This document shows positions 31,739 to 64,000 of a stretch of DNA of 64,000 nucleotides, in pieces. Position numbers and translations under genes: made by a program. Each line of letters begins with the position of its first letter. Position 1 is the first letter of the stretch. The stretch lies in IMG/VR virus record IMGVR_UViG_3300025000_000065, positions 47,970 to 111,969 of that record; one strand, given 5' to 3'. Origin of the DNA: a virus. The notes below the pieces were generated by a model. The model did not search any database. It had not been told where the DNA came from and saw nothing but the letters and a program-made list of their open reading frames with translations.

Positions 31739-34402
31739 TTAACCATAAATTGATGCGACATCTCTCACGCTTCCTTGTCTAACAAGAGTAGAATTGATTT
31801 CTTTTATAACATCTCTAGCAATGTCTTTTATTTTTGGAATTGTTTTTTCAATTACATCACCTTGAACCGTAATTAAACTTTCAATATTTAAACCTCCAGA
31901 ACCTTGAGCCTTATTAATAATGTTAGCAACACGAGGAATCATCTTTAAGGTTTTCAATATATCATTGTTATTCATTACCTCTTCACCAACAAGAAGTTTA
32001 GAAAGAATTTCACCTGGTAATGTTCTAACTCCACCTACTGCACCAGAAGATAAACCACTATGATGAGTAGGAAGTGTTTCTGTAGATACAACTGGGGAAA
32101 CTCCACCATATAATGCATCTGCTAAATTTCCGTATTTTAATAATGCATCATAAGCTTCATTCCATGCTTCGACAACATCTGTTACAATTCCAGATCCATA
32201 TTCAGAATTCCAATCTATTAATGATTGATATAAATCAGGAGCTTGTTCCCCAATTCTATCTAATGCATCTTGAGCAATTTGACCAGTTTTATCTAAGTAT
32301 TCATCAATAGCAGAAACAGCCTCTTCAATTATTGCAATTTGAGAATCGATGTTTTCTTTATATAGCTCATATTCTTGATCCAGTGCTTCTTCCTGCAAAT
32401 CATAAGATCTATCTCTTTGAGTTTGTTCTAAGTCTTTTTGAGCATCTGCTAATTCTTCAGCGAGTTCTAACTGTCTTGCTTTAGACTCAGCGGAAGTATC
32501 AAGTGCCAAAATTGCCATTTCAGATTGAATCTGAGCAATAGTTTTAGTTTTATCCTCTAGTTCTTCTTGATATTCTACGGATTCTTGTTCTGCTCTTAAG
32601 ATTTCTTTTTTGGCATCTATAATTTCTTCATAAGCGTCAAGTTGTGCTTCTAATCCATCTATTTGATCTTTTAAAGCATCTTTTCTTGCGTTTTGCTCCG
32701 CTTTAATTAAACTAATGACTAGATTGTGAAGATCTTTAAGTGTTTTTATTTCTTCTTTTGCAGCAGCAGAAGATCCACCACCGCCACCGCCTCCAGCACC
32801 ACCACCTGAATATCCAGGAAAAGCAGATCGAGTTGGAACATTTGTAGGAGGTGGATTGAACGGCAAAGAAACGCCATTTAGAATATCATCACCCATTGGT
32901 TCTGTACTTTGATTAGAAATAACATTTCCACTTGTAGTAACAACAAAATTTAAATAATAATCTCCACTTATCGCATTTGCAGCATTTCCAATATTTAAAA
33001 TGTTACCAATTGCTATTGCAGCAGCTTCATAAGATCCATTTGCTAAATCAATCATGGCTTGATCCATTGAACCCAATACTCTTACAGTTTCCGATCCCAT
33101 GAATCCCCAAGCTGTCATCATATCAGCAGCCATAGTATAGGCTACATTTTTAGCTTCATTGCCTAAAGTAGATAATTGTATTCTTTGAATAAATGTACTA
33201 ACGATAGATGCCTGAAGAGATTTCTCATAAGCATCAGCGGTTTTTAAAATATCCTGTTCAACATTATATAATTCATATTGTAGATCACCCAATTGAGTTA
33301 ATTGCTCATCTGATAATGTTGGTTGTTCTGAAAGTAATCGTATTTCTTCTCTTAATTCTGCCGCTTGAATTCCTGCTTTTTCTTGTTTTTCGTGATAAGA
33401 ATCAAATGCTTTTCCAAATGAATCATCGAGTATATATTGCAGATTATCAAATGCTTGAGATAATTCTTCTGTGCTATCAAAGATTTGACCATGCGCACGT
33501 CTCCAAGCTGTTACCCAAGTATCTAATTCTGCTTTCGTAGCATTAAATAAACCGAGTTCAGCATCAGTAAGAGTTCCAAAATCTTCAGCGGTTTTTACTA
33601 TAACCTTTCCTCCGCTGCTTACAACTCTTATTAACTCACCGTTTTCACCGATGGTATATCCAGCAATTTCCGCTGCTCTTTCTACTGCTTCAATATAATC
33701 ATTATAATTACCTGTTGTATCTTTTAGTGTGGAAATTACTTCTTTCAATCCTTGATCAAGTATTTTTTGTTTATTTACAAAAAGATCAGCTATAATTCCT
33801 GCTCTATTATGAGCTTCATTAACGGAATCCACCATTTTTTTGTATTCACCCATTACTTGTTCGGTGGTCTTAATTTCTTCACCTAAATTTTTAAAAGCAT
33901 TAGACCAAGCATTAGTTGTATTTTCTAATCCTAAATCTTGCTGTTTCTTAACTGTTTGTTGATATGTTATAATTACAGCAGTTAAAGCAACAATTGCGAT
34001 TTGAAAAATTGAAACCCAAGATATAGTTGTTTTTAATAAAAGTTGCAAACTAACTAATGAAAAAGAAAATCCTTGTATAGCCGTAGTTGCACCCATAATT
34101 TTAATAATAAAATTTGCCATTGCTTGGGCACTTAAAACTCCAACCAAACCAATAAGAGATTCTAAAATAGGAATTAGTCCACCCATAGAATCAATTGCTT
34201 CAACAGAAGAAATTCCTAAGTCTAAAAAGAATTTAATGACATCATCATCGATTGCTTTTTGCCATAGGTTTTCCATTGCTGCCTTTAATGTATTTGCTTT
34301 TCCCTCTATGGAATCCATGTAAATTTTATATCGTTCTGTAGCCAATCCAACAGAATGAAGTTGTTGTTCTTGAGCTTCTAGTACCTGGTTGTAGTTTTCC
34401 AT
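31739..34402 (-). CDS. Tape measure protein, 3' exon
   Basis: About 887 residues, the C-terminal two thirds of the tape measure. It begins MENYNQVLEAQEQQLHSVG...YKIYMDSIEGKANTLKA, the conserved helical segment that in uninterrupted tape measures directly follows the AGKNRMPEYM segment found at the end of the 5' exon. Hydrophobic segments near residues 50-135 are likely membrane-inserting. Long coiled coils follow, then a Gly-rich stretch near 540. The spliced protein is about 1,290 residues, which at 0.15 nm per residue implies a tail near 190 nm. The ATG at 34400-34402 is not a true start: no ribosome-binding site precedes it. Confidence 0.8.
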   Translation of the reverse strand: MENYNQVLEAQEQQLHSVGLATERYKIYMDSIEGKANTLKAAMENLWQKAIDDDVIKFFLDLGISSVEAIDSMGGLIPILESLIGLVGVLSAQAMANFIIKIMGATTAIQGFSFSLVSLQLLLKTTISWVSIFQIAIVALTAVIITYQQTVKKQQDLGLENTTNAWSNAFKNLGEEIKTTEQVMGEYKKMVDSVNEAHNRAGIIADLFVNKQKILDQGLKEVISTLKDTTGNYNDYIEAVERAAEIAGYTIGENGELIRVVSSGGKVIVKTAEDFGTLTDAELGLFNATKAELDTWVTAWRRAHGQIFDSTEELSQAFDNLQYILDDSFGKAFDSYHEKQEKAGIQAAELREEIRLLSEQPTLSDEQLTQLGDLQYELYNVEQDILKTADAYEKSLQASIVSTFIQRIQLSTLGNEAKNVAYTMAADMMTAWGFMGSETVRVLGSMDQAMIDLANGSYEAAAIAIGNILNIGNAANAISGDYYLNFVVTTSGNVISNQSTEPMGDDILNGVSLPFNPPPTNVPTRSAFPGYSGGGAGGGGGGGSSAAAKEEIKTLKDLHNLVISLIKAEQNARKDALKDQIDGLEAQLDAYEEIIDAKKEILRAEQESVEYQEELEDKTKTIAQIQSEMAILALDTSAESKARQLELAEELADAQKDLEQTQRDRSYDLQEEALDQEYELYKENIDSQIAIIEEAVSAIDEYLDKTGQIAQDALDRIGEQAPDLYQSLIDWNSEYGSGIVTDVVEAWNEAYDALLKYGNLADALYGGVSPVVSTETLPTHHSGLSSGAVGGVRTLPGEILSKLLVGEEVMNNNDILKTLKMIPRVANIINKAQGSGGLNIESLITVQGDVIEKTIPKIKDIARDVIKEINSTLVRQGSVRDVASIYG

Positions 34403-35908
34403 CAAAATTAAAAAATTTTCGCGTTGCCGAACTTTTCTGTTGCTTTCACACCGCGAAGCATGTTACTGACCATTTTACAATGGCGATTAAGTATTTCTAC
34501 TTAATTCTGCAATTTCTTTTTGTTATAGTTGCAGAGCAGACCATATCTTTTTCTTGTTTTATACAAGAAAGATGACGCGGGAATTTATGTCACCACAAAC
34601 ACCCAATTGGTCGTTACGGATTCTCAAAAATTATAAATAATGACTAAAAATTGTGTGTAGTTTAGTCAAATCTTTTCTAAAAATTTCTATTAATTTAATA
34701 TTATTATCTTTACAAATATTTCTTTTTTCTTTCATTCTCTCAAAATAAAAAATTTTTTCTGGCATTCCAAAAAATTCTACAAATATATTTTTTTCAATTA
34801 CCCAATCAACTCGTTTTAATCCACATCTATCATCTTCACAATACTTATTATACATTTCCTCTTTTTTATAATTTATATCATTATCTATTAAAAAATTTGT
34901 TATTGTCAATTCAGACTTGGAAAAACATAAATCTTTATTTGTAGAATAATATGTATTAGATTCTCCAAATAAAGAAGAATTTGAATCTAAATTAGCTAAC
35001 CCACATGCATTTCGATATCCATCAAATCGTCTTTCAAATGTTTTTACAGATGGCAATCCATAAAGAACAAGTTCGCTACCATAAGGAGTTCTTCCTAAAT
35101 ATTCTCCTAATTCTTTTAGTTGTTCTATCATTTGATCTGCATCATACCATTTAACACTTTTTTCTTTAGTTTTATGAAATCCTAATTTAAGTGCCATAGT
35201 TCTTATGCTTTCCGGTTTTCTATTAAGAAAATATTTTTCACTCAAGTATTTATTAGTATAATGAGGATAAACGGTTTTTAATAATTTTATATCTTCGTTT
35301 GTCCAAGTTTTATTTACTTTCAATCTTAAATTATTTATTTTTGCATAAACACCAGATAAAGTTCGATTTAATTTTTTAGCAATTTCTTCATAAGATAATG
35401 TATCATAATTTTTTATTAAAAAATCAATTTCATCAGGTGAATAATCTCTGTTTTTTTCAACAATTATATTCAACTCAGAAGATTTATGACGAATTGAATC
35501 AATATTATTATTTTCTAAATTTTTCATTAATAACTCATAATTTCCACTAGGATATAATTCTTTTAATATTTTAATCCTATCATCCGTCCACTGATATCTT
35601 CCAATTCCCCAAGAAGAAATTAAATTTAATATTGTTGAAGAACATCTATTTACTTTTTTACATATTTCGTTTAATGGAATCTTATTATAATTATCTTTAA
35701 TATAATCTAATTCATTAGGCGTCAATGGTTTCTTTTTCATACTGTTTAATTATCCTTTTAAAAATATTCGCTACACATCAAATATTTTTTAATAATTTAT
35801 TTTTTTTTATAATTTTTGAGTCTTTCCTCGGAATTGTCTGCTTCCAGAGTTTTTCCGATATGGTCATCTTCTGAGATTTTTATTCTAATTATAGAAAATG
35901 CAATCTCT
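34403..35908 (-). mobile_element. Group I intron in the tape measure gene
   Basis: About 1.5 kb separating the two exons. Core helices occur in canonical order on the - strand: P3 5' strand (35863-35870), long P6-like stem whose loop holds the endonuclease gene (35809-35820 with 34623-34634, 12 bp perfect), P7 5' strand within ACGACCA (34608-34614), P3 3' strand (34569-34576, 8 bp), P8 hairpin (34550-34570, 8 bp), P7 3' strand within AAGATATGGTC (34539-34545). The last matches the conserved S element. The 3' end is placed at a terminal G (34403); the 5' site is uncertain by a few codons because P1 could not be drawn convincingly. Confidence 0.85.
34631..35740 (-). CDS. Intron-encoded Vsr-like homing endonuclease
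   Basis: A 369-residue protein within the intron. The N-terminal two thirds carry three repeated SANT/Myb-like or HTH units (TPNELDYIKDNYNKIPLNEI, SPDEIDFLIKNYDTLSYEEI, WTNEDIKLLKTVYPHY). The C-terminal 110 residues have a PD-(D/E)xK/Vsr-like core: SKSELTITNFLIDNDINYKKEE, then KRVDWVIEKNIFVEFFGMPE, then RNICKDNNIKLIEIFRKD. The residues E, D and E of this core are the likely metal ligands. This architecture resembles the EDxHD intron endonucleases of phage recA introns. It has no GIY-YIG, LAGLIDADG or HNH motif. The ATG has an aaagga site. Confidence 0.75.
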   Translation of the reverse strand: MKKKPLTPNELDYIKDNYNKIPLNEICKKVNRCSSTILNLISSWGIGRYQWTDDRIKILKELYPSGNYELLMKNLENNNIDSIRHKSSELNIIVEKNRDYSPDEIDFLIKNYDTLSYEEIAKKLNRTLSGVYAKINNLRLKVNKTWTNEDIKLLKTVYPHYTNKYLSEKYFLNRKPESIRTMALKLGFHKTKEKSVKWYDADQMIEQLKELGEYLGRTPYGSELVLYGLPSVKTFERRFDGYRNACGLANLDSNSSLFGESNTYYSTNKDLCFSKSELTITNFLIDNDINYKKEEMYNKYCEDDRCGLKRVDWVIEKNIFVEFFGMPEKIFYFERMKEKRNICKDNNIKLIEIFRKDLTKLHTIFSHYL

Positions 35909-37126
35909 ATATGTTACCATATATTCTGGCATTCTATTTTTACCAGCAATAGCATTTGCAACCGCACTTTGCTCTATTTCATTCATCGTAGACCATTTTT
36001 CAGCAATTTCATCCATTACATCACCCATAGGTCTAAATGAAGTAGCGGTATCTCTTAATCTGATATTGACTAAACCCAATGCTCTTTCAACATCGTTAAT
36101 ATTTGTTTTATCATCTTCAAACATTTTTCCAAGTTTAATGTTTTCTAAACGAGCGAACATCGTCTTCATACTTTGACCTATCGACTCAGCGGAGCGGCGT
36201 GAAACGCTCGAAATCGTAGCAATGTAACTTGTCAACTCATCAAAACTAACTCCTGCTTGTTGAGCAGAAGCAGCAGAATATTGTAGTGCTGTGGCAATTT
36301 CATTAGCCGAGGTTGCCATCCGATTATCCAAATCGATTATTTTATCAACAACCAAACTAGCATCCTCAGCCTCTAACTTAAATCCATTCAAAGTAGCTGT
36401 TAGTTTTTCAGTTGAATCTGCGGATTCCATGTTTCCTAACTTACTCAACATCAAAGTTGACTTCATTAATTCAGAGGTTTCTTCAATTGTCTTTCCTTGC
36501 CTGAACCATTCGAGGCTTCCCTGTGCCACCTGAATTGTTGTAGCACCCATTTCTTTTGCAAGTTTATTATATTCAACCGCTAATCTGTCAACTTCATCGG
36601 CAGTCATTCCCGTAACAATTTGAACATTTGTTAACTCTTTGTTCAAATCTTTAATATATTGTATTCCTTCTTCTATTTTTCGAAGACTTCCATAAATAGC
36701 TTGTGTTGCAAGAAACCATATTGCAACTTTTTTAATAGCAACTTCAAGCATGGATGTAAATCCATAACCATCTTTAGTCGTATTTTTCATAGAAGCACCG
36801 ACTTTAGTAACAGAAGTTCTTAAATCATCAAAACTTCCCCTTACGTCTTGAATAGAAGCACCACCCCTTTGAGAAAAACTAGTAATGTTATCTTGAAGAA
36901 CCTTTAACGATGCTTGAACGTCTGCGTTATTAAAAATATCTGGAGATTTAAATTGCATTCTTGCAATTTGATTATTCCACTGTTTAACATAAGAATCAAT
37001 ATCTTTCTGCCCCATATTGATACTTGTTGTTATTTTAATATTTTTAGTTTTTCTATCTAATTTATCTTGAAGACCTGTAACATCAGGTTCAATGCCAACT
37101 ATAATATTATAACCACCATTAGCCAT
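35909..37126 (-). CDS. Tape measure protein, 5' exon
   Basis: About 406 residues starting MANGGYNIIVGIEPDVTG, with ggaggg 6 bases upstream. The region YIKDLNKELTNVQIVTGMTADEV...LAKEMGATTIQVAQGSLEWFRQG matches the phage tape-measure core domain (PhageMin_Tail, TP901 type), followed by SSVSRRSAESIGQSMKTMFARLENI and ending AGKNRMPEYMVT. Without splicing, translation adds only about 9 intron-coded residues and stops at 35885, giving a truncated protein. Splicing is therefore needed for a functional tail. Confidence 0.85.
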
Positions 37127-37164
37127 TAATAACCCTCCTTTCAACCTCTAGAAAAGAGGCAATT

Positions 37165-48247: not shown

Positions 48248-49300
48248 TTAATTTTTTATTTTTATTTTTCCAGACTTTATTTTATCCATAAAGTCATTCC
48301 ATTGTTCGGGAGTATTGTCTCCCATTCCATAAATTTTATGAAATTTAACGTGGCATTTTTTAGTTAATGGTATTCCTAATGGATAGCGGTAATGAACTTC
48401 AACTAATTTATTGATAAGCAGCGCGATTTGATCACCATCATATTCACCAATTGTATTTTTTAATTCAAATCCCAATTCTTTTAATGACTCTTTTAATAGT
48501 GAATTAAACGATTGAACGTGATGAATATCTTCAAATCTTTTTCCACTAATGACACATTTATAATTAGAATTTTCCATACTGTCTTTTTTCCATTGAACAA
48601 TGAACTTAGATAAATATGCTTTTAGTTCAGTTAATCCACCTTGCCAATTACTTGAATTTTCTTTTGAATATTTAATTTTATTTTCTTCTTTTGTACATAT
48701 TGTACAGTTTTTATCTCTGTGTAAACCAGGATACCTTCTTGTTTCAATATGACCATTTGGACAAGAATAAGTAACAATACTTTTAAATTTAAGAAGATCT
48801 CCTTCAAAAGATATAAATTGAAATCCTATAGAATCAAAAAATTCCATCATTTTTTTTTCTGTTTTTTTAGAAACAGATTCCTGTTGTCTTTTAATGGCGT
48901 TGCAAGGATCTCTTTCTCCTGATTGAAATGCTGAAAAAGACATATTATGTATGTTTCCGCATTCAAACTTTATTTTTAAAAGACTTGAATGATTAACATA
49001 TTCTTTTGAAATTAATTCACAATTTCTATCTTCAATATATTTTTTAACATATTCATAAGAAAGTTTGTTTTTAGAAGCAGATTTTTTATAACCACATTGT
49101 TGGCAAGAAGAATGTTTGGCATAAATTAATCGTGGAATGGATTTCCACTTATGTCCACAAACCAAACATTCAAAATCACATTCCGTTATTGTATTTACAT
49201 AATTATAAAAAACAATGGTTTTATTATGTGCGATATCAATTCTTTTTTGTACTTCTTCTTGAGTTATTGAAGGCGTTCTAAATCTTTTGGCTCTTTCCAT
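48248..49300 (-). CDS. Free-standing HNH homing endonuclease
   Basis: About 350 residues from the ATG at 49300 (a TTG 12 bases upstream is alternative; neither has a clear ribosome-binding site). Two zinc-ribbon units, CLVCGHKW with CQQCGYKK and later CPNGH with CTIC, are DNA-binding modules. The C-terminal HNH domain reads YKCVISGKRFEDIHHVQSFN...LTKKCHVKFHKIYG. It is inserted between the capsid gene and the next head gene without splitting either. The hairpin just upstream may hide its start until late infection, as in other phage homing genes. Confidence 0.75.
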   Translation of the reverse strand: MERAKRFRTPSITQEEVQKRIDIAHNKTIVFYNYVNTITECDFECLVCGHKWKSIPRLIYAKHSSCQQCGYKKSASKNKLSYEYVKKYIEDRNCELISKEYVNHSSLLKIKFECGNIHNMSFSAFQSGERDPCNAIKRQQESVSKKTEKKMMEFFDSIGFQFISFEGDLLKFKSIVTYSCPNGHIETRRYPGLHRDKNCTICTKEENKIKYSKENSSNWQGGLTELKAYLSKFIVQWKKDSMENSNYKCVISGKRFEDIHHVQSFNSLLKESLKELGFELKNTIGEYDGDQIALLINKLVEVHYRYPLGIPLTKKCHVKFHKIYGMGDNTPEQWNDFMDKIKSGKIKIKN

Positions 49301-49315
49301 TATCAAGTCCAATCA

Positions 49316-49369: not shown

Positions 49370-50485
49370 CTAGATCGTAATTAGTCCCAGGACAGAATTG
49401 GAGGCTACAGCCGTTCCCCAAGACTTGTGCATAGTAGCACGCTGAATTAAATTACGATTCTCATAAACAGAATCAGTAATAGAAAGGGTTGAACCTTCTA
49501 ATACTAATTTAACAAATTTCTGAGAAGCTGGTGATAAAATCCAGAGACGATCTGTGTCAATTTTCAAAGACCATTCGGTATCGTTATTGGCAACTTGGGG
49601 AAGTTCCATTACATCGTATCCAAATGCGGTACGAACATGACCGAGAGTCATATAGGGATCGTCTAAAGTATAGCGATAATTAGCATCATTGGGTAAAACA
49701 TTTACTAACGCACGTGCAGTACCAACGATCATTGCTTTATTACCGTTATTCCAAGCAGTAACCTGTTCGCATAAGCGCATCAATGAATCTTGTGAATAAC
49801 CAGCAACTTGTAAACCAGTTGTAGCTGTAGTTGGTAAAGCAGCAGCCATAGCGGCAAAAGCATCGTAAACATCATTACGCATAGCTGCTTCCATAGAACG
49901 AATAACTTTTACAACTAATTTAGCAAGAGATTCTTTTCCAGATAAAACACGATATAAATCAGCGTAAACAGTCAAAGCATGATTTACTGGAGTAACGGTT
50001 TTTGTTCCCATAAATTGTTTGTAGGCAAAAGAATTTCTCTGACCACGACCAATTTGAGAAACAGAAAACAGGTCATTAGATTCAACATCAAACTGAGCAC
50101 TATCACCAAACCCAATAGTACGAACATCAGAATATAAGCTAATAGAGTCAATCAAAGTCTGTGGAATAATCATATCAACGATGCTTGCCACAACAGCAAA
50201 AATCTCATTGCGTAAACCCTGATGATTAAAGATTTGATCAGCCGGAGCTTCAGCAAGATAAGGAACGTTAGTTCGTTTCATTGCTTCTTTAATAATTGCA
50301 TCAGTAATTTGTTTTTCTTTTTCCTCAAAAGTAATCAATTCCCCTTTATCATTAACTTTAGCGAATTCATAATTTCGAGTTTTGTCCTGTGAAGACTTGT
50401 AGTGATTCCACCAGTCAGGGATCATTTTATCATATAATGTGGGATTCCCAACAGCGAAATGAACAATATTATTCGGAATTTGCAT
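49370..50485 (-). CDS. Major capsid protein (HK97 fold)
   Basis: A 371-residue protein with the features of HK97-type capsids: a long N-terminal helical arm, a spine-helix-like segment (ALTVYADLYRVLSGKESLAKLVVKVIRSMEAAMRNDVYDAF), A-domain region MIVGTARALVNVLP and YMTLGHVRTAFGYDVMELP, and a beta-rich C-terminus. Base composition is richer in GC than its neighbours, as expected for the most expressed gene. It follows the protease/scaffold and decoration genes in the usual order. The ATG has aaggagg. Confidence 0.8.
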   Translation of the reverse strand: MQIPNNIVHFAVGNPTLYDKMIPDWWNHYKSSQDKTRNYEFAKVNDKGELITFEEKEKQITDAIIKEAMKRTNVPYLAEAPADQIFNHQGLRNEIFAVVASIVDMIIPQTLIDSISLYSDVRTIGFGDSAQFDVESNDLFSVSQIGRGQRNSFAYKQFMGTKTVTPVNHALTVYADLYRVLSGKESLAKLVVKVIRSMEAAMRNDVYDAFAAMAAALPTTATTGLQVAGYSQDSLMRLCEQVTAWNNGNKAMIVGTARALVNVLPNDANYRYTLDDPYMTLGHVRTAFGYDVMELPQVANNDTEWSLKIDTDRLWILSPASQKFVKLVLEGSTLSITDSVYENRNLIQRATMHKSWGTAVASNSVLGLITI

Positions 50486-50519: not shown

Positions 50520-50541
50520 TAATGTGGAAAACCCAACATTA
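50520..50541. terminator. Small stem-loop before the capsid gene
   Basis: taatgtgg pairs with cc-acatta with one bulged base. It overlaps the stop codon of the decoration-like gene on the - strand and precedes the capsid ribosome-binding site. It may uncouple or protect the capsid mRNA. Confidence 0.35.
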
Positions 50542-51081
50542 GTTAGAAAGACAAATCATTCGATAAGCTGTAACTCTACCACTTGCAACCGCAGGATTAC
50601 CAATAGATATCCATTTTGTAGCCAGATATTTAAATGATAAAGCATTTGCGGCATGTGCTGATCCCCAAACCAATTGCCATAAACCAGTTGTAGCATTAGC
50701 ATAAGTATTAGTAGATTTTGCGGCAGTGAAACAATCTTCACTTAAAGTTACAATATCACCTGGTTGTGGTTTAAAAGCATCAAACACACGATTTGCAGGA
50801 TTGTAGAAATTACGAGGATCTTCTGAACCCTGATTAAAAATTTCACCATCTGCGGACTCTAAGAAAGGAATAACCTGTCCAACAGCCATCCATACGTCAA
50901 CCAAACTGCCAGTTGCAATTTGAGTTGCGGCAAACACCTCTCCCTGTCCAGAACCACTTGAAAGTGAATCTAAACGAAACAGAGAAGCCTGTTCCAAATC
51001 ACTACCACTCGTTGCTGTTCGATTGTAAATCGCCACATCGGTAGCGGCAACTTGATTTAATTCAATAACTGCATATGCCAT
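50539..51081 (-). CDS. Probable capsid decoration protein
   Basis: A 180-residue, Ala/Ser/Thr-rich beta protein with low charge (YAVIELNQVAATDVAIYNRT, EVFAATQIATGSLVDVWMAV, TGLWQLVWGSAHAANALSFKY). It lies between the protease/scaffold and capsid genes and shares the capsid gene's less AT-rich codon use. This is the normal place for a head decoration or stabilising protein. No firm family match. Confidence 0.55.
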   Translation of the reverse strand: MAYAVIELNQVAATDVAIYNRTATSGSDLEQASLFRLDSLSSGSGQGEVFAATQIATGSLVDVWMAVGQVIPFLESADGEIFNQGSEDPRNFYNPANRVFDAFKPQPGDIVTLSEDCFTAAKSTNTYANATTGLWQLVWGSAHAANALSFKYLATKWISIGNPAVASGRVTAYRMICLSN

Positions 51082-51093
51082 ATTTACCTCCTA

Positions 51094-52908
51094 TTATTTC
51101 CAGAAACTTGTAGTGACTGGTTTGTTTTTATTTTCTGAATCCCAAGCATAACGAGGTTCTTCATCCTCTTGCTTTGAATCTTTCTTAATTGCAAAATCTA
51201 ATGCTCTAGCCTTCGCCAAATTTTCCCAAACAGAAATATTCTCTAAACTAAAATCTTTAGATTTTTCTTTTAAAATATTCAACTCATCTTTTGGAATTTC
51301 AGTTTTTTCTTCAATTTTCTTTAAAATAGAATCAACAGAAAAATTAAATTGTTCATCTTCTTTTTCTTTCTTATATTTTTTCAAATTTTCATTTTCCGCC
51401 ATATAAGAACTTGCTTCAGATTCTTTTTCTTTTAATTGCTCTGACATTTTCTTCATTTTTTCAAACATATAATTAGCCATTTTCGCAAAATTTTTAGTTT
51501 CTTTTTCATCGGAAAATTCAGCAGCCAAAGATTTATAATCTTGAGTTTCTTCCTGAAGAAACGCTAAAACAGCCTTAACATCTAAATTGGCATCCAAAGA
51601 CATATCTTCTTTTTCAGATTCCTCTTCCTCTTCTGGTTTTTCATCTTTGGGTTCTTCATTTTCTTTTTCATCAGACATGTTTTCTTCCTTTGGCTTTTCA
51701 GCCATTTTTTCTTTGTCTTCTTCTTTGGTTTCTTGTTCAAAATCCTTTTTTTCTTCTTCCATATTTTTCGACTTCTCCTTTCTCACCCATTTTCCATTCT
51801 CAACTTTATGAGTTTTTTTAAAATTAGAAATAGCAATAGCCCAACCATTTTTTTCTTTATCTGAACCAAGGGTATCAGCTTGTCTCGCTATTGTATTTGC
51901 TTGAGAAACAGAAATAGGAGGATTTATTTCCTTTAAAGCAGGACTCATTTCCGATTTATCTTTATACAGAAAAGTAACTTTTTCAAAATTTTCAATATCA
52001 GAAAAATAAGTCATTTCTCTTTTATCTATTTCATTCATCTTTTCGACAATACTCGATGACCAATTTTTTCCCTCATTGCCACCTCTGTTTAACCAGGATA
52101 TCCATTCATTAGATGTTTTATTGGTAAGATTGTCTTTTGCATGTCTGAAAAAATATTTCTCTATACTTCTTATTTTTTCTGGAGTTACAAATTGGTTTTT
52201 TATTATATATCTTGCAATTGCTAGTCCAACAGAAGTTCCACCGCCATATTTTTTATAAAGTTCAAGACTTTTTATAGCATTATTTTTCACTTCTTCTGGA
52301 ATGGAAAAATCAATTTCATCATACATTCTTGAAAATTCTAAATGTAACGCCTTCTCATATTCTTTTTTTGCAAAACTAAGAACCTCTAAATGAGCACCAG
52401 GACTAGCTTCAGTAATAAGATCTCCCAATACACAAACGGCAGAATATTCAAAATCAAGCATTTCTTCTCCGTTTTCCATTTCGGAATAATCTTTTAACTC
52501 CATTTCAACAGAAACTTTTTTTTCATGATTTTCTGATTCTTTTAATAGTTGCATAAATTGAGGAGCATACATTTTCCATATTTTCGCTAAAACAGATAAG
52601 GATGTTCTTCCATCTTCAAGTTCAATAAATTCAGCAGAATCACGAACAATAAATCCTGCAATAAAAGATTTTTCTGGATCTGTATGAGAATCAAAATCAC
52701 GAAACAGTTTAGAAAAAGAATAAATAACTGGTTTATCATAAATTGATTGAGCTGTGTTTTTTAATGTGTCTAATGAACAATACATGTCATGTCTATTCCA
52801 GCCACTATTAAAAGCAAAAATCTTTATTGTCGCAAACTGAGAAGACTCGTTTTCCTCTATGATTTCTCCACTTTCAATATCAAATAATAAATGCTTATTA
52901 GAACTCAC
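51094..52908 (-). CDS. Prohead protease fused to scaffold
   Basis: A 604-residue protein. N-terminal 210 residues have a prohead-protease-like layout, with His in FRDFDSHTDPEKSFIAGF and Ser in EKKVSVEMELKDY. A second module, GGGTSVGLAIARYIIKNQFVTPEKIRSIEKYFFRHAKDN...EWISWLNRGGNEG, is known fused to such proteases. The C-terminal 240 residues are highly charged and helical (long Glu/Lys runs, KMSEQLKEKESEASSYMAEN), typical of scaffold. It likely guides capsid assembly and then digests itself. The GTG start has ggagg. Confidence 0.65.
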   Translation of the reverse strand: MSSNKHLLFDIESGEIIEENESSQFATIKIFAFNSGWNRHDMYCSLDTLKNTAQSIYDKPVIYSFSKLFRDFDSHTDPEKSFIAGFIVRDSAEFIELEDGRTSLSVLAKIWKMYAPQFMQLLKESENHEKKVSVEMELKDYSEMENGEEMLDFEYSAVCVLGDLITEASPGAHLEVLSFAKKEYEKALHLEFSRMYDEIDFSIPEEVKNNAIKSLELYKKYGGGTSVGLAIARYIIKNQFVTPEKIRSIEKYFFRHAKDNLTNKTSNEWISWLNRGGNEGKNWSSSIVEKMNEIDKREMTYFSDIENFEKVTFLYKDKSEMSPALKEINPPISVSQANTIARQADTLGSDKEKNGWAIAISNFKKTHKVENGKWVRKEKSKNMEEEKKDFEQETKEEDKEKMAEKPKEENMSDEKENEEPKDEKPEEEEESEKEDMSLDANLDVKAVLAFLQEETQDYKSLAAEFSDEKETKNFAKMANYMFEKMKKMSEQLKEKESEASSYMAENENLKKYKKEKEDEQFNFSVDSILKKIEEKTEIPKDELNILKEKSKDFSLENISVWENLAKARALDFAIKKDSKQEDEEPRYAWDSENKNKPVTTSFWK

Positions 52909-52954: not shown

Positions 52955-53155
52955 TTATAATTTATTAAGTAACCTTATATAAACAGGAACTTTTTTTAAT
53001 TTTTCTTTAAATGAAACTGTGCTTACAAAATAATCCCTATTTTTTTTTCTATGGATTGGAACAGCCCCTAATTCTTGAATTAAATATTCCCCCATTCTTT
53101 TATTACAAGAAAACCACGAATCTAATTGCTCTTGAGTAGGATTAATAACATACAT
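52955..53155 (-). CDS. Small protein coupled to the ferritin gene
   Basis: A 66-residue protein starting MYVINPTQEQLDSWF. The ATG overlaps the ferritin stop (TAATG), and taggag lies upstream within the ferritin gene. It is basic in the C-terminal half. Tight coupling suggests a shared role with the ferritin, but nothing is recognised. Confidence 0.55.
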   Translation of the reverse strand: MYVINPTQEQLDSWFSCNKRMGEYLIQELGAVPIHRKKNRDYFVSTVSFKEKLKKVPVYIRLLNKL

Positions 53156-53646
53156 TATTTTTCTCCTAAATCCCAAAGGAATACATTGAACCAATTATTT
53201 CCAGTTAATTCAGCTTTATCCATAAAATCAGTTGCTTCTTCATATTCGTGTCTTTGTATTTCTATCATTTTTCTTATAAATTCTTCTACAACCGGATTTG
53301 ATTCATCAATTGATATTTTTTTAATTTCATCAAGACTCGCAGTTGTTTCATATTCTCTTAACAAATATTTATCGGCAACATCCATAATCGAATTAATTGG
53401 AATATTTATTTCCTCAATTTCAGAAAGCGTAACATCTGCGTTGATATCAGTTAATAAATTTATAATCATTTCAGAATGTTCGTTTTCCTCTTTATATTGA
53501 TTATAAAACTTACTCCCCAAATGATTCAATCCTTTATTTTTTAAGAAGGAAGATATATATAAATATAAATGTGCATTATATTTTTCATGCGCCCATTGTG
53601 CCAACAAAGAATCAATCAAATTATCACTAATTAATTTTATCCCCAT
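53155..53646 (-). CDS. Ferritin (FtnA-like ferroxidase)
   Basis: A 163-residue four-helix protein that aligns along its length with bacterial non-haem ferritin. All six ferroxidase ligands of E. coli FtnA are matched: E21 (AHEKYNAHLYLY, for E17), E54 and H57 (KEENEHSEMIINLLTD, for E50 and H53), E100 (REYETTASLDEI, for E94), Q131 and E134 (EIQRHEYEEATDFMDKA, for Q127 and E130). Ferritins oxidise Fe(II) and store it inside a 24-mer shell. The gene sits within the head cassette between the small structural gene downstream of portal and the protease/scaffold gene, all on one strand, so it is expressed late. The ATG has aaaggagg. Confidence 0.85.
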   Translation of the reverse strand: MGIKLISDNLIDSLLAQWAHEKYNAHLYLYISSFLKNKGLNHLGSKFYNQYKEENEHSEMIINLLTDINADVTLSEIEEINIPINSIMDVADKYLLREYETTASLDEIKKISIDESNPVVEEFIRKMIEIQRHEYEEATDFMDKAELTGNNWFNVFLWDLGEK

Positions 53647-53684
53647 TCTACCTCCTTTCTAAAAAATTAAATAAAAGGTATGTT

Positions 53685-54017
53685 TTATTGGAAAGTGACA
53701 AGATTAATAATATCGCCTGTTTGAATTACATTAGCGGCAGGACTTGAAATTGTAACTGTTCCTGAAGTATTTTTGACATAATACTGTGAACCACTTGTGG
53801 GAATAACCAAAGAACCAGATGAGCGAAATTGTTGAAAAATATATCCTGTAACAGAATCTAGTCCGCTATCAATTGCTACGCTTGAAGCACTCGCTTGAGC
53901 AGAAGAAACAGTAGTGGCAGATACACCCTGAAATCCCTGAACCAAAGTTCCCAATGAAACATCTTGAGATGCACGATTCATTTTATTTAATTTTGATTTT
54001 TGTGTTGCAGTAATCAT
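53685..54017 (-). CDS. Small structural protein with KLNxMNRASQ motif
   Basis: A 110-residue protein. The N-terminus SKLNKMNRASQDVSLGTLV is shared with the larger protein at 61095 (TKLNRMNRASQNVNLGTIL). The rest is a Ser/Thr/Val-rich beta domain (GSQYYVKNTSGTVTISSPAANVI). The motif probably docks both proteins to the same virion partner. It lies between portal and ferritin genes. Confidence 0.6.
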   Translation of the reverse strand: MITATQKSKLNKMNRASQDVSLGTLVQGFQGVSATTVSSAQASASSVAIDSGLDSVTGYIFQQFRSSGSLVIPTSGSQYYVKNTSGTVTISSPAANVIQTGDIINLVTFQ

Positions 54018-54100: not shown

Positions 54101-55693
54101 TCATTTTAATTTTTTAGCATCATTTGAGCCTGTTTCTCTTGTTTGAGCACCAGCCTCTCCCAATTCGCTATCCGATGATTTCGGTCTACCACTTTTATCA
54201 CTATCTTTTCCACTCATTTGAAAGCCAGAAATAATTGGAGTAAGTTTATCAACAAAGCCACTTCCTCTAGCTTCTTGAAGCATTCTTTCTAACTCTTGTG
54301 GTAACAAACCTATAGCACTAGAAATCAATTGTGGAAGAACTATTCCTTTATCTGCCATCCCCATAGCTCTTTCATATCTTTGAGTTCTATTTAAATAGTA
54401 ATCATTGCCTTCTAATCTAAATCTATATTTATATTTATTTGTTCTTAAATTTACCCAATAATTAAGAAATGAAACAAACTGAGGATATAATTGTTGTTCC
54501 ATTATCTTAGAATCAGATTCAAATGATAATTGAGAATCTACTAAATTTGCTTTTGTTTGCATCGAATAAATCAAAGCAGTATCCATTCCAGACATAGACA
54601 TAGAAGTTTGAATCCATTTACTCAAAACATCTGTATCGCCTTCAAAAGAAAATGCTTGCATATTCTCTAATGGAGCGGCAGAAACTTTAACGGCTTCTCC
54701 AACCGCAGATTTAGCCAAAGCCATAAACTGTCCTAATTGAACAGGATTTAATGCCACCATATCTGCAACCGAAGCACCTTTATCATCTTTTCTCATGGGA
54801 ACTTCACCAAACAATATTTTTGCAGCAGCAGCCATATTAATGTTTTTCTGTAAGGCAATCATGGTTTGATCATTAATAAGTAAAGGCAACATGGCAGAAA
54901 AATACGGAATAGCAGTCATTAAAGATGTATCTAACTTAAATACCCAACCCTCAGATGGAGGTAAATCAACCCAAAAATTGTATTCTGAATTTCCTCTCAA
55001 CTCAGGAGGAAGAGACGGGTTATATATTTGAGCACTAGTTTTACCGCCAAATAATTCAACGTATTTCTTTTTAAAGAAATCGGGATATAAATTTATATCA
55101 ACTCCAGGTTGAATAAAATAATAAAAATTAAAAGATATTAAAGGTGCTCTACTTCCTTTGGCTGTAATTTTACAATATAGTAAAGGAAGTTCCTGTAAAA
55201 CAATTGTATCTTTATTTTCTCTTGGAGTAACAACACATATTTCATTTCTCAACAACTGTTTTGAAATATTTCTAAAAAATGATCGATAATCAAATTTATC
55301 AAAATATTCATATAAAACTTCTTTATCTTTTATATAATTATTACTTTCATATTCTTTATCTTTCATTGAATTTCTTACGGTATATTGTAAATCAAAAGCT
55401 AAATGACTTGCCATATACGAAAATATTCTCTTCAAAGGCATAGACAATATTTCAAAAAATTCAATATAATCTCTTAATTGCTCTTCTGAATTTTTTGCAT
55501 TACCTAATGCATCCGTAATATTTCTCTCAGTTGGAGAAAGAGGATTGAATGAAATTTCTTTTATTCTTTGATTCAATAAATCAGGAGTCAATAAATTATA
55601 ACTTGCATTATACATTGTTTGTGCAAATTTTATTACATCAAAAACCTCTTCTTTAGAAAGAAGAATTTCATCATTTTTATTTTCTTCAGTCAT
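54101..55693 (-). CDS. Portal protein
   Basis: A 530-residue protein directly downstream of the large terminase. Helical N-terminal part (EQLRDYIEFFEILSMPLKRIFSYMASHLAF), a beta segment (RNEICVVTPRENKDTIVLQELPLLYCKI), the wing and stem-like helical region (DQTMIALQKNINMAAAAKILFGEVP), and YRFRLEGNDYYLNRTQRYERAMGMADKGI near the C-terminus are typical of phage portals. It forms the dodecameric DNA channel. The ATG has aggag. Confidence 0.8.
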   Translation of the reverse strand: MTEENKNDEILLSKEEVFDVIKFAQTMYNASYNLLTPDLLNQRIKEISFNPLSPTERNITDALGNAKNSEEQLRDYIEFFEILSMPLKRIFSYMASHLAFDLQYTVRNSMKDKEYESNNYIKDKEVLYEYFDKFDYRSFFRNISKQLLRNEICVVTPRENKDTIVLQELPLLYCKITAKGSRAPLISFNFYYFIQPGVDINLYPDFFKKKYVELFGGKTSAQIYNPSLPPELRGNSEYNFWVDLPPSEGWVFKLDTSLMTAIPYFSAMLPLLINDQTMIALQKNINMAAAAKILFGEVPMRKDDKGASVADMVALNPVQLGQFMALAKSAVGEAVKVSAAPLENMQAFSFEGDTDVLSKWIQTSMSMSGMDTALIYSMQTKANLVDSQLSFESDSKIMEQQLYPQFVSFLNYWVNLRTNKYKYRFRLEGNDYYLNRTQRYERAMGMADKGIVLPQLISSAIGLLPQELERMLQEARGSGFVDKLTPIISGFQMSGKDSDKSGRPKSSDSELGEAGAQTRETGSNDAKKLK

Positions 55694-55719: not shown

Positions 55720-57552
55720 TTACCAATAACTAAGTGCAACCATAGCCTCTAAATCATCTTTATTATCTTTTTGTTTAACTAATTCAATATCAAATTCCTT
55801 TGATATAACATAGTTTACATAAGATATTGCAGAATATCTATCCTTATATGAACCAGGCTTTTCAACTAATTTAATTAATCCATTAACAGGTTTCATATCC
55901 AAATTGATACATTCTCCAATTAATAAACCTGTTTGAACATATGGGTTCAAAAAGAACCCTCTTAAATATGAATCATCTGGATCAGAAAGAAATTCCTTAT
56001 TCTTTTTTAATAAGTATTCTTCACCTTCGGATTCAGGAATTAAAAATTCCCACATTCTTCTTTGAAGTAAAGACCTAAATGAAACAGCAATATCACTATT
56101 CAATGCTTGACTGGCAGTAATTGGAAATATAATTGGTTTTGCTTCCAAACCCCTGGTATGATTTCTTCTAAGATCTTCTCTGGCATCTTGTTTTATAATA
56201 TCAAAATATTCATCGACAACTGTCATTGCTGGATAAACAATTCCTCTTTCCTCATCGATGGTTTCTTCACTAAGAAAGTCAAAGATACCAATACCTGCTG
56301 ATTGAACATCTAAAACCAAATAATCAGCTTCAAAATCATAAAATACTCTTTTTAATCTTTTAGCCTGTTCTCCAGCATGAGATCCCTTATGTGATTCCGC
56401 ATAAACAAGTTGTCTTCGATAACCAACCCCGATTAAAGGTAAAGCTCTAACACATTCAATAATGGAATTGTCATTTGCTTTATTCGCTCTTGTAGCAATA
56501 TCACAACTTACAAACCTTATCTCTCCTGTTGTTTTTAGCAATCCATAAGGATTTTTTTTAGTATTAAAATTATCTTCTTTTTGAGGATAGAAAGCCTGTT
56601 TTATATTTCTTTTAAATAAAGTAGATTTAAAGTAACTTTTTCCACTAGAACCACTTGGAATATTTAAATACTCCATTTGAACGGTCAATGGATCGGCATC
56701 TTCCATTTCATTCTTAAGCATGGATTTTGTTTTAATACCATGATGCAACGAAATTAAATAATCAAAGGCTAAAAAGTTTGCCGTTTCATCACCAGAATTC
56801 ATTCTTTTTATACATGTTTGAACATAAGTGTACCAATATTCCATTGTGTACCAAGAAGATGTAATATATGATATAGTTCCTTCTTCTTGAAGTCTTTTAT
56901 CATTAGCATATTTAGGATTGTTTTTATAAGGAGGATTGCGTGTTTCTAAAAACGGCTTAATAACTCCCTCTAAAATTTCTTTAGGAACAAGACGACTTTC
57001 TTCTACAATGATATAATTAGCACGATTACCTCTAGCCGATTCTGAACTGGGAACAACTCTTATTGTTGATCCATTATGAAAAATACAATCATATGTATTA
57101 GGATTAGCTGTTATACTTTCAATTTCTCTTTCAAGATTAGGATGCTCTTTTCTAAGCTGCATAATCTTTTCAGAAATTATAATTCCACCTTGTTTTAATG
57201 TTTTAGCACAAACAATTATTTTTATACCTGGATATAAAACAGCCAAAGCACAAGACCAAACAGCAATAATCCACGTTTTAGCAGAAGCACGACTAGCAAC
57301 GATATAAGCCAAACTACTTCTTTGAAGAACCCATATCATTAATATTTGATAGACATGTAAATGAATTCCAAAATAATCCATGATAAATCTATGGGGATTT
57401 CTTCTAAAAAAAGTAATCCATTTTTTCAATTTTTCTTTTCGTTCTTCTTCTAAAATCTCTTGAGTAATAAAAGATTTTTGTCTTTTGAAAATATCTTTAC
57501 TATTTTTATTTTTAATTCTTTCATTTTGATATGGTCTAGGAGAAGTTGGCAT
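55720..57552 (-). CDS. terL: Terminase large subunit
   Basis: A 610-residue protein. ATPase: YIVASRASAKTWIIAV is the Walker A variant used by TerL, IIVCAKTLKQGG the Q-like segment and NYIIVEESRLVPKE Walker B with catalytic Glu. Nuclease: FVSCDIATRANK, YLVLDVQSAGIG and KDRYSAISYVNY provide the three acidic sites of the RNase H-like domain. It pumps DNA into the procapsid and cuts concatemers. It is encoded 11 bases after the small-subunit gene. Confidence 0.9.
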   Translation of the reverse strand: MPTSPRPYQNERIKNKNSKDIFKRQKSFITQEILEEERKEKLKKWITFFRRNPHRFIMDYFGIHLHVYQILMIWVLQRSSLAYIVASRASAKTWIIAVWSCALAVLYPGIKIIVCAKTLKQGGIIISEKIMQLRKEHPNLEREIESITANPNTYDCIFHNGSTIRVVPSSESARGNRANYIIVEESRLVPKEILEGVIKPFLETRNPPYKNNPKYANDKRLQEEGTISYITSSWYTMEYWYTYVQTCIKRMNSGDETANFLAFDYLISLHHGIKTKSMLKNEMEDADPLTVQMEYLNIPSGSSGKSYFKSTLFKRNIKQAFYPQKEDNFNTKKNPYGLLKTTGEIRFVSCDIATRANKANDNSIIECVRALPLIGVGYRRQLVYAESHKGSHAGEQAKRLKRVFYDFEADYLVLDVQSAGIGIFDFLSEETIDEERGIVYPAMTVVDEYFDIIKQDAREDLRRNHTRGLEAKPIIFPITASQALNSDIAVSFRSLLQRRMWEFLIPESEGEEYLLKKNKEFLSDPDDSYLRGFFLNPYVQTGLLIGECINLDMKPVNGLIKLVEKPGSYKDRYSAISYVNYVISKEFDIELVKQKDNKDDLEAMVALSYW

Positions 57553-62930: not shown

Positions 62931-63965
62931 TTATCCTTTCTTGCATAAGCGACCACCGATAAACACGTACGTGTTCGCGGAGGAATAAAGCAGATACCAA
63001 TACCAGAGACCAGCAAACCCACCGAGGCCCCAGCGCCCGCCGACGACGGCAATATATTGAGCAGTGCTTTGATAATAGTAATCTTTGTAGAAATTTGCAC
63101 TAACATCCACAGGTAGCTCAATCATTGGATTAGCAGCATCAAAACCCATATACTTCACGTATCCACTTGCGTCTTTATTAACATATCCAATTTGTTCGTA
63201 GGGGCTCGCAAAAACATTACTGGCATAATCATCTGCGTCTTTGCAAAACCAGGCTTGCCGTGCGTTAATATTAAGGCCATCCACAAACTGCCAGACATTT
63301 CCATACAGATTTTCAATCCCTCGATACATAAATGGATTTTTACCGTTCGTATTATGCGCTAATGATCCACTGCTCGCAGAAATCCCACTTGAAAATCCAC
63401 TTTTCCAGCCACAGTTCCAAAGCACGTTACCCGTTGAAGCGTTAAAAGCAGCCCCGTCTACAGTTATTGTTGTTGATCCTGCACCTGGAGTATCAACTTG
63501 AATAAGCGTAATATTGCGTCCATAAAATACAGACGTATTACCAGCCGCTGTTCCCAATCCAACGGGTTGCCCAACAGCGAATTTAGCACCAATAGTATTT
63601 GCTACAACAATTGTGTTAGCCGCTGATGTGTCCGCTGTCAATACTTCAGTCGCTGCATAATTTCCAGCAGTCCACCCAGTCATAATCGCCTGGCTATCCA
63701 GCTTTGCAAATTCCACCGTGAACAAAACCTGGAGCATATCATACACGTGAATGTCTAATTGCTGATACCCAGTACCGTTGGCTTCTGCGTAGGTTCTAAA
63801 TTCGACGATGTTCTTGTTTATCAATGGATATTCGTTCGGCAAGCTGTTTAACTTCGTACCACCCGTCAGGGTCGTGCCTGCAGGATACTTTCCAACATAA
63901 ACCTTATCTAACCTAGCACCGGTTGAAAAATTGTAGCACGCCCACGGCCAATATGAATTTGGCAT
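62931..63965 (-). CDS. C-type-lectin-fold surface protein, DGR-target-like
   Basis: A 344-residue protein. The middle carries the sulfatase-modifying/CLec signature FMYRGIENLYGNVWQFVDGLNI (G-xEN-GNVWQ pattern). The C-terminus ends in AVVGGRWGLGGFAGLWYWYL...YVFIGGRLCKK, which has the layout of variable proteins of diversity-generating retroelements. The N-terminal part (residues 1-200) probably attaches to the virion. Codon use and GC content differ clearly from the rest of the window. No reverse transcriptase or template repeat lies in the window. It is probably the receptor-binding protein. Confidence 0.7.
   Translation of the reverse strand: MPNSYWPWACYNFSTGARLDKVYVGKYPAGTTLTGGTKLNSLPNEYPLINKNIVEFRTYAEANGTGYQQLDIHVYDMLQVLFTVEFAKLDSQAIMTGWTAGNYAATEVLTADTSAANTIVVANTIGAKFAVGQPVGLGTAAGNTSVFYGRNITLIQVDTPGAGSTTITVDGAAFNASTGNVLWNCGWKSGFSSGISASSGSLAHNTNGKNPFMYRGIENLYGNVWQFVDGLNINARQAWFCKDADDYASNVFASPYEQIGYVNKDASGYVKYMGFDAANPMIELPVDVSANFYKDYYYQSTAQYIAVVGGRWGLGGFAGLWYWYLLYSSANTYVFIGGRLCKKG
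62943..63050 (-). other. Putative DGR variable region
   Basis: The last 36 or so codons of the lectin-fold gene. Between constant residues (GG, W, AGL, WYW, SS, IGGRLC) lie codons ending in T or C at sites that AAY template codons would fill (CGC, GGC, CTC, TTT, TAT, CTT, TAT, TAC, TTT). This is the footprint of adenine mutagenesis. No template repeat is in view to confirm it. Confidence 0.5.
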
Positions 63966-64000
63966 TCTCGCCTTACATATCTGTCTTATAAGGTGTGTGC

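Follow-up and report, generated by a model that had tools for sequence, protein, structure and literature searches.

A ferritin-fold gene, in intact and ligand-less forms, holds a fixed position among the head genes of a tailed-phage lineage

What does a ferritin gene do among the genes that build a phage head? The question is raised by an open reading frame (ORF) of 163 amino acids (aa) at positions 53155..53646, on the minus strand, of a 64,000-nucleotide stretch of viral DNA. This stretch, called the window below, comprises bases 47970-111969 of the 111,969-base IMG/VR record IMGVR_UViG_3300025000_000065. Judged by its sequence and its modelled structure, the ORF encodes a full-length FtnA-type non-haem ferritin. 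The evidence for a ferritin in a head cassette is stronger than the initial annotation of this DNA had claimed: throughout a large phage lineage the gene keeps its slot, and the di-iron ligands are invariant in 34 intact homologues.

The plus-strand reading of the interval is riddled with stops. The minus-strand ORF starts with ATG, and a near-ideal Shine-Dalgarno sequence, AAAGGAGG, read from the sequence, lies 4 nt upstream (53651..53658, minus strand). The protein matched the Pfam family PF00210 (Ferritin) over residues 12-146 (E=1.1e-16; 61.4 bits, cut-off 24.5), and its top match in the PDB was the Campylobacter jejuni ferritin 1krq, over residues 7-159. These matches, which for the solved ferritins cover the window protein from end to end, bear out the ferritin identity given in the initial annotation, as does the structure prediction that had been proposed as a check. 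The AlphaFold model, for which 31 homologues from phages were used, had a predicted local distance difference test (pLDDT) score of 95 and a predicted template-modelling (pTM) score of 0.88. Its helices span residues 8-37, 41-67, 87-114 and 118-148, followed by a short fifth helix at 152-161; a short C-terminal fifth helix is needed for the ferritin 24-mer. In a Foldseek search the model resembled ferritins of bacteria and archaea with template-modelling (TM) scores of 0.89-0.94, and those that form 24-mers with scores of about 0.9; the best matches were from Archaeoglobus, Thermotoga, Vibrio, Campylobacter, Pyrococcus and Helicobacter. The profile of the phage ferritin family matched solved ferritins at 3e-29, and the best matches were all 24-mer ferritins. 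In fold, five helices, length and E-E-H-E-Q-E ligands the window protein thus resembles the non-haem ferritins (FtnA; Pyrococcus 2jd6, Archaeoglobus 1s3q, Thermotoga 1vlg, C. jejuni 1krq). A bacterioferritin was excluded by N55, found where the haem-binding Met is expected, and by Q131 and E134 on helix D, where bacterioferritins have Glu and His. Dps, a 12-mer with a short BC helix and a ferroxidase site between subunits, was excluded by the intra-subunit ligand set, the presence of the fifth helix and the best matches, all of them 24-mer ferritins, and an encapsulin cargo protein (EncFtn/Flp) by the five-helix rather than two-helix subunit.

The window protein family by itself was found in six viral contigs only; these few close relatives have identical gene order. 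The wider ferritin family was reached only via the portal protein: a portal-profile scan of IMG/VR gave 71 loci, on which the profiles of two ferritin groups were then run, one with the di-iron ligands (intact) and one without most of them (stripped). The distinct proteins found numbered 34 for the intact group and 10 for the stripped group. Non-redundant loci from IMG/VR and GenBank phages in which both portal and protease were visible comprised 29 intact loci, 10 stripped loci and 12 without ferritin; L001 and L008, among the 29 intact loci, are the window's own record or a contig 100% identical to it. The initial annotation had proposed looking for homologues next to portal or capsid genes, and all the ferritin-bearing non-redundant loci (39/39) carry the ferritin-fold gene between portal and protease/scaffold, on the same strand. 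Portal identities across the slot-bearing loci span 100% to about 20-30%. Cultured relatives, as judged by portal and capsid, infect Enterocloster bolteae and Thomasclavelia ramosa. The sole tblastn match of the window protein among annotated phages, MT836766, was rejected as a bacterial contig (two-component system, GH92). It is one of four fecal contigs deposited in GenBank as 'Bacteriophage sp.' that look bacterial (L009, L178, L179 and L180; MT836766, MT839617, MT838998 and MT838721), and the ordinary bacterial ferritins on them can mislead searches for phage ferritins.

We compared the phage proteins with 58 cellular ferritins drawn from more than twenty bacterial and archaeal phyla. Of the six ferroxidase ligands named in the initial annotation, E21, E54, H57, Q131 and E134 stand, whereas E100 was ruled out as the fourth: in the alignment to 1krq and the 58 cellular ferritins, it is E98 that aligns with the helix-C ligand, and E98 is invariant while E100 is variable. 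The corrected set was read in 34/34 distinct intact phage proteins, and the same six ligands are present in the 58 cellular ferritins. An alignment of 31 intact phage ferritins, the most distant of which is 25% identical to the window protein, retains only ten invariant columns; these include all six ligands and Tyr28 (hypergeometric P=9e-9). Since the invariant residues are the di-iron ligands and a nearby Tyr, selection on metal chemistry is indicated in the intact clade. The window ferritin is, from its residues, very probably ferroxidase-competent. Its gene is under strong purifying selection, with a ratio of nonsynonymous to synonymous substitution rates (dN/dS) of 0.06-0.15 within the window clade, similar to that of the portal, capsid and protease genes. 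Residues N24, F47 and T101 are also invariant in the intact phage ferritins; their cellular counterparts are S or A, mostly M, and V or I, respectively. The site-C glutamates (positions 130 and 133) are E in 58/58 cellular ferritins and are mostly replaced, and variable, in the phages; the window protein has I and H at these positions and so does not have site C. Site C is dispensable for membership in the ferritins, as eukaryotic H chains do without it.

The 31 aligned phage ferritins were too divergent as a seed for a genome scan, and the cellular ferritins were therefore fetched with a cellular alignment. In the resulting tree, 30 intact phage ferritins fall on one side of a branch and the 58 cellular ferritins on the other, with a Shimodaira-Hasegawa-like approximate likelihood ratio test (SH-aLRT) support of 99.8. 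As a family, the intact phage ferritins stand apart from the sampled cellular ferritins, and a recent acquisition from a host was rejected on this tree. When the stripped group was added, a single clade of all phage forms was not rejected by the approximately unbiased (AU) test (p-AU 0.88). In contrast to cellular FtnA, the phage ferritin has a virus-only clade, the N24/F47/T101 signature, mostly replaced site-C glutamates and a location in the head cassette. The sequences are most likely explained by a virus-specific ferritin that a lineage of tailed phages took into its head-assembly module long ago, in a single event.

The ten stripped proteins, from the Enterocloster and Thomasclavelia phages and their relatives, have kept the fold and the slot and have lost the di-iron ligands except the helix-B His. 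Their profile matched the Pyrococcus ferritin at 2.6e-9 among solved ferritins; it also picked up, at 9e-8, a bacterial ferritin on which it had not been trained. An hhalign comparison with the intact phage family gave a probability of 95.4. The AlphaFold model of the stripped protein from L025 (pLDDT 90.5) had a TM score of about 0.85 to the Archaeoglobus ferritin. The portals of L029-L031 are about 60% identical to that of the window and group beside it; their ferritins belong to the stripped clade. This combination suggests that active and stripped genes replaced each other at the slot, and the swapping of two forms in one slot argues for a head-linked role beyond iron chemistry. L082, too, is near the window phage by portal (about 60%) and carries the ligand-less form.

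GenBank already uses the name 'ferritin' in this slot, for ORF39 of phage PMBT24 (PMC11035940) and for gp13 of TR-TP1, a 'Ferritin domain-containing protein'. Both share with the window the post-portal slot, the fold family and homologous portal, protease and capsid proteins, but they differ from the window ferritin in having lost the di-iron ligands except the helix-B His. With these ligands lost, the 'ferritin' of PMBT24 and its relatives has no ferroxidase centre, a correction to the annotation. A scan of IMG/VR with the PMBT24 ferritin-slot protein gave no match. The initial annotation knew of no well-described case of a ferritin in a structural cassette. That statement stands for intact ferritins in the literature searched (open-licence PubMed Central), where we found no account of a conserved head-cassette family of ferritins, of the ligands that stay invariant in it, of how it separates from cellular ferritins or of a stripped sister form; it does not stand for the two ligand-less proteins just described, which already bear the name. 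Phage-encoded ferritins as such are on record, and a structural search of viral models returned a few named examples, A0A8D9C9X5 (uncultured marine phage) and A0A8S5Q7U4 (Siphoviridae sp. ctrzs15). Three BFVD entries from uncultured Caudovirales phages (A0A6J7WIS1, A0A6J7XDU5 and A0A6J7WPK9) have a Foldseek-matched ferritin-like domain within 'Prohead protease' proteins and are possible independent ferritin-protease fusions.

The genes around the ferritin are all on the minus strand, in the order terminase, portal, 110-aa protein, ferritin, small protein, protease/scaffold-like protein, 180-aa protein and capsid protein. The terminase large subunit (55720..57552) was recognised by PHROG matches and by Terminase_6N (E=0.0039), and the 530-aa portal protein (54101..55693) by PHROG 2739 (E=5.5e-40) and 33% identity to the PMBT24 portal. 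The 110-aa protein between portal and ferritin (53685..54017), with a weak match to PHROG 18880, was found in a subset of relatives. On the other side of the ferritin lies the small head-cassette protein (52955..53155), of 66 aa from its ATG or 79 aa from an upstream TTG, and then a probable prohead protease of 604 aa with an E/K-rich, scaffold-like C-terminus (51094..52908; PHROG 3313). A Pfam search of the latter found no domain, and its assignment is based on synteny and sequence character. The 180-aa protein directly before the capsid gene (50539..51081; PHROG 4147) is, by synteny, possibly a decoration protein. The 371-aa major capsid protein (49370..50485) matched PHROG 4088 (E=9e-50) and is 37% identical to the annotated major capsid protein of PMBT24.

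The stop codon of the ferritin overlaps the ATG of the small protein as TAATG, which suggests translational coupling of the two. No terminator-like sites were found between portal and protease, and promoter-like sites that might mark an internal promoter were no commoner than in shuffles. Given the shared direction and the coupling, the ferritin is probably expressed late with the head genes, in agreement with the initial annotation. The small protein (66-79 aa) was found in nearly all loci with a window-type cassette, including ferritin-less ones. In L043, L047, L054, L058, L064 and L065 the ferritin is missing, the cassette is otherwise similar and the small protein is retained; the small protein is therefore not a ferritin partner only. 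Elsewhere in the ferritin-less relatives no ferritin was found above the cut-off. The lone weak match, in the L064 record, had E=0.0018 and lies inside a frame of about 1,280 aa.

The constant slot and the iron-inactive form point to a head-linked role, and the constant ligands point to iron chemistry in the intact clade. Taken together, they make a co-assembled, Fe(II)-oxidising ferritin the most economical reading. We see roughly an even chance that this is an ancient virus-specific ferritin which acts in head assembly and oxidises Fe(II) in or around the prohead, with an iron-inactive version in some lineages. The subunits would be made late, along with portal and scaffold, and would assemble into a 24-subunit cage. 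The synteny suggests that the ferritin acts inside the prohead or close to it, most likely as a core component that is co-assembled. Its ferroxidase centre would convert Fe(II) and O2 or H2O2 to a ferric mineral and in this way clear Fenton reactants from around the DNA during packaging or storage. Where a lineage has the stripped form, no more than the structural or assembly function would be left. The T4 portal nucleates a core that contains protease, scaffold and non-essential internal proteins (PMC9958956). The T4 core proteins (gp67, gp68 and IPI-III) are small, some are dispensable, and they are associated with portal, protease and scaffold (PMC9958956). They are not homologous to the phage ferritin and are not metalloproteins, so that the likeness is one of function and gene position only.

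A more specific version, which we put forward tentatively, is that the ferritin family is a true component of the prohead and that iron is oxidised and mineralised inside a DNA-containing HK97-type capsid, some lineages having swapped in an iron-inactive form that retains the assembly role. If true, this would be a viral counterpart of ferritin-loaded encapsulins. Encapsulins with ferritin-like cargo likewise combine a shell of the HK97-type lineage with an iron oxidase of the ferritin superfamily, and they are thought to derive from HK97-type phages (PMC8346489). In contrast to encapsulins, the window carries a five-helix ferritin of the classical type, and the phage is a complete one that has genes for portal, terminase and tail.

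Several points weigh against a head-linked, iron-oxidising ferritin. In 12 related loci the cassette is otherwise similar but has no ferritin gene, and because of these loci the ferritin is not essential for head assembly in general. Its conserved location may reflect expression timing alone, and the stripped form could have taken on a new function of another kind. The ferritin showed no signal for targeting to the capsid or for loading as cargo, and inspection of its C-terminus, NNWFNVFLWDLGEK, revealed no recognisable cargo-loading peptide. The cellular sample was picked by similarity to three queries (Pyrococcus, Archaeoglobus and Bacteroidales), and the trees were made with quick methods and have long branches.

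The ferritin might instead stay free in the cytoplasm and never enter the particle; transcribed late, it would shield the infected cell and the replicating phage DNA from iron-driven oxidation, or withhold iron. We regard this as a serious possibility, if a somewhat doubtful one. It accords with the complete ferroxidase site of the intact proteins and with the lineages that do without the gene. Dps and Mn-catalases in hundreds of gut phages have been interpreted in this way (PMC8008677), and Dps lies near replication genes in Lactobacillus phages (PMC6669764). These proteins (from Gratiaviridae, Flandersviridae and the Lactobacillus phages) likewise belong to the ferritin superfamily and represent phage-encoded handling of iron or peroxide, but they are of other families than the window ferritin, and in the Lactobacillus phages they are near replication genes, not in the head cassette. 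An auxiliary metabolic gene should change its position in the genome, whereas the ferritin is in one slot in 39/39 loci; repeated uptake from different hosts would be expected, whereas the phage family is not intermingled with the 58 cellular ferritins. A ligand-less form in the same slot is also hard to explain if iron is the only function.

It is unlikely, by our estimate, that the protein is mainly a structural head protein, a cage or helical bundle that serves as an assembly element with iron binding secondary. The ten proteins that retain fold and slot with the ligands gone would fit such a role, as would the fixed position between portal and scaffold; however, what stays invariant in all 34 intact proteins is exactly the set of di-iron ligands with the neighbouring Tyr. 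Very improbable is the Ferrojan Horse idea raised in the initial annotation, in which ferritin-borne iron helps the particle exploit the iron-uptake receptors of the host. The hypothesis exists in the literature and has been invoked for Vi01-like phages, where gp217, a ferritin by Phyre2 prediction, was seen by mass spectrometry (PMC10892097). As quoted in that paper, it concerns iron in tail fibres for receptor uptake, whereas the gene sits among portal and head genes with no link to tails, and a 12-nm cage would not fit in the tail tube. Moreover, the idea failed in the one phage group in which it was tried with receptor mutants: the Vi01-like phages grew no worse on tonB and feoB mutants than on the wild type (PMC10892097). 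A host ferritin fragment captured by chance, or a metagenomic mis-assembly, might be suspected from the fact that direct matches in the annotated phage collection are bacterial fecal contigs only, but it is refuted by the conserved synteny, with identical junctions in dozens of independent contigs, and is further opposed by the low dN/dS and the virus-only clade.

Elsewhere in the window, the tape-measure gene is apparently split (31739-37144): its pieces of 419 aa and 888 aa both match the tape-measure family PHROG 4211, and between them lies a 369-aa D5-regulator/HNH-like ORF (34631-35740), which looks like the result of an insertion by an intron or homing element; an Rfam search found no group I intron. 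An HNH-type homing endonuclease (48248-49312; PHROG 559 and 681) is inserted directly after the capsid gene and is not present in the relatives L002-L004; a relative sits between two terminase pieces in L020. An AAA/RecA-like ATPase gene (4506-6599) has its Walker A motif (GK...HNST) split by an intein, which contains a LAGLIDADG domain. The tail protein at the end of the record (62931-64000), in a stretch of higher GC, has a C-terminus that resembles the target of a diversity-generating retroelement; no reverse transcriptase was found in the 112-kb record.

In the prevailing view, ferritins are cellular proteins and the iron genes of phages are movable auxiliary genes. With a ferritin family that occurs in phages only, keeps its chemistry invariant and always has the same place among the head genes, the handling of metal would belong to the assembly of the virus. 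A head-linked phage ferritin would tie phage heads to iron-storing encapsulins, and iron in the particles would become measurable in isolates.
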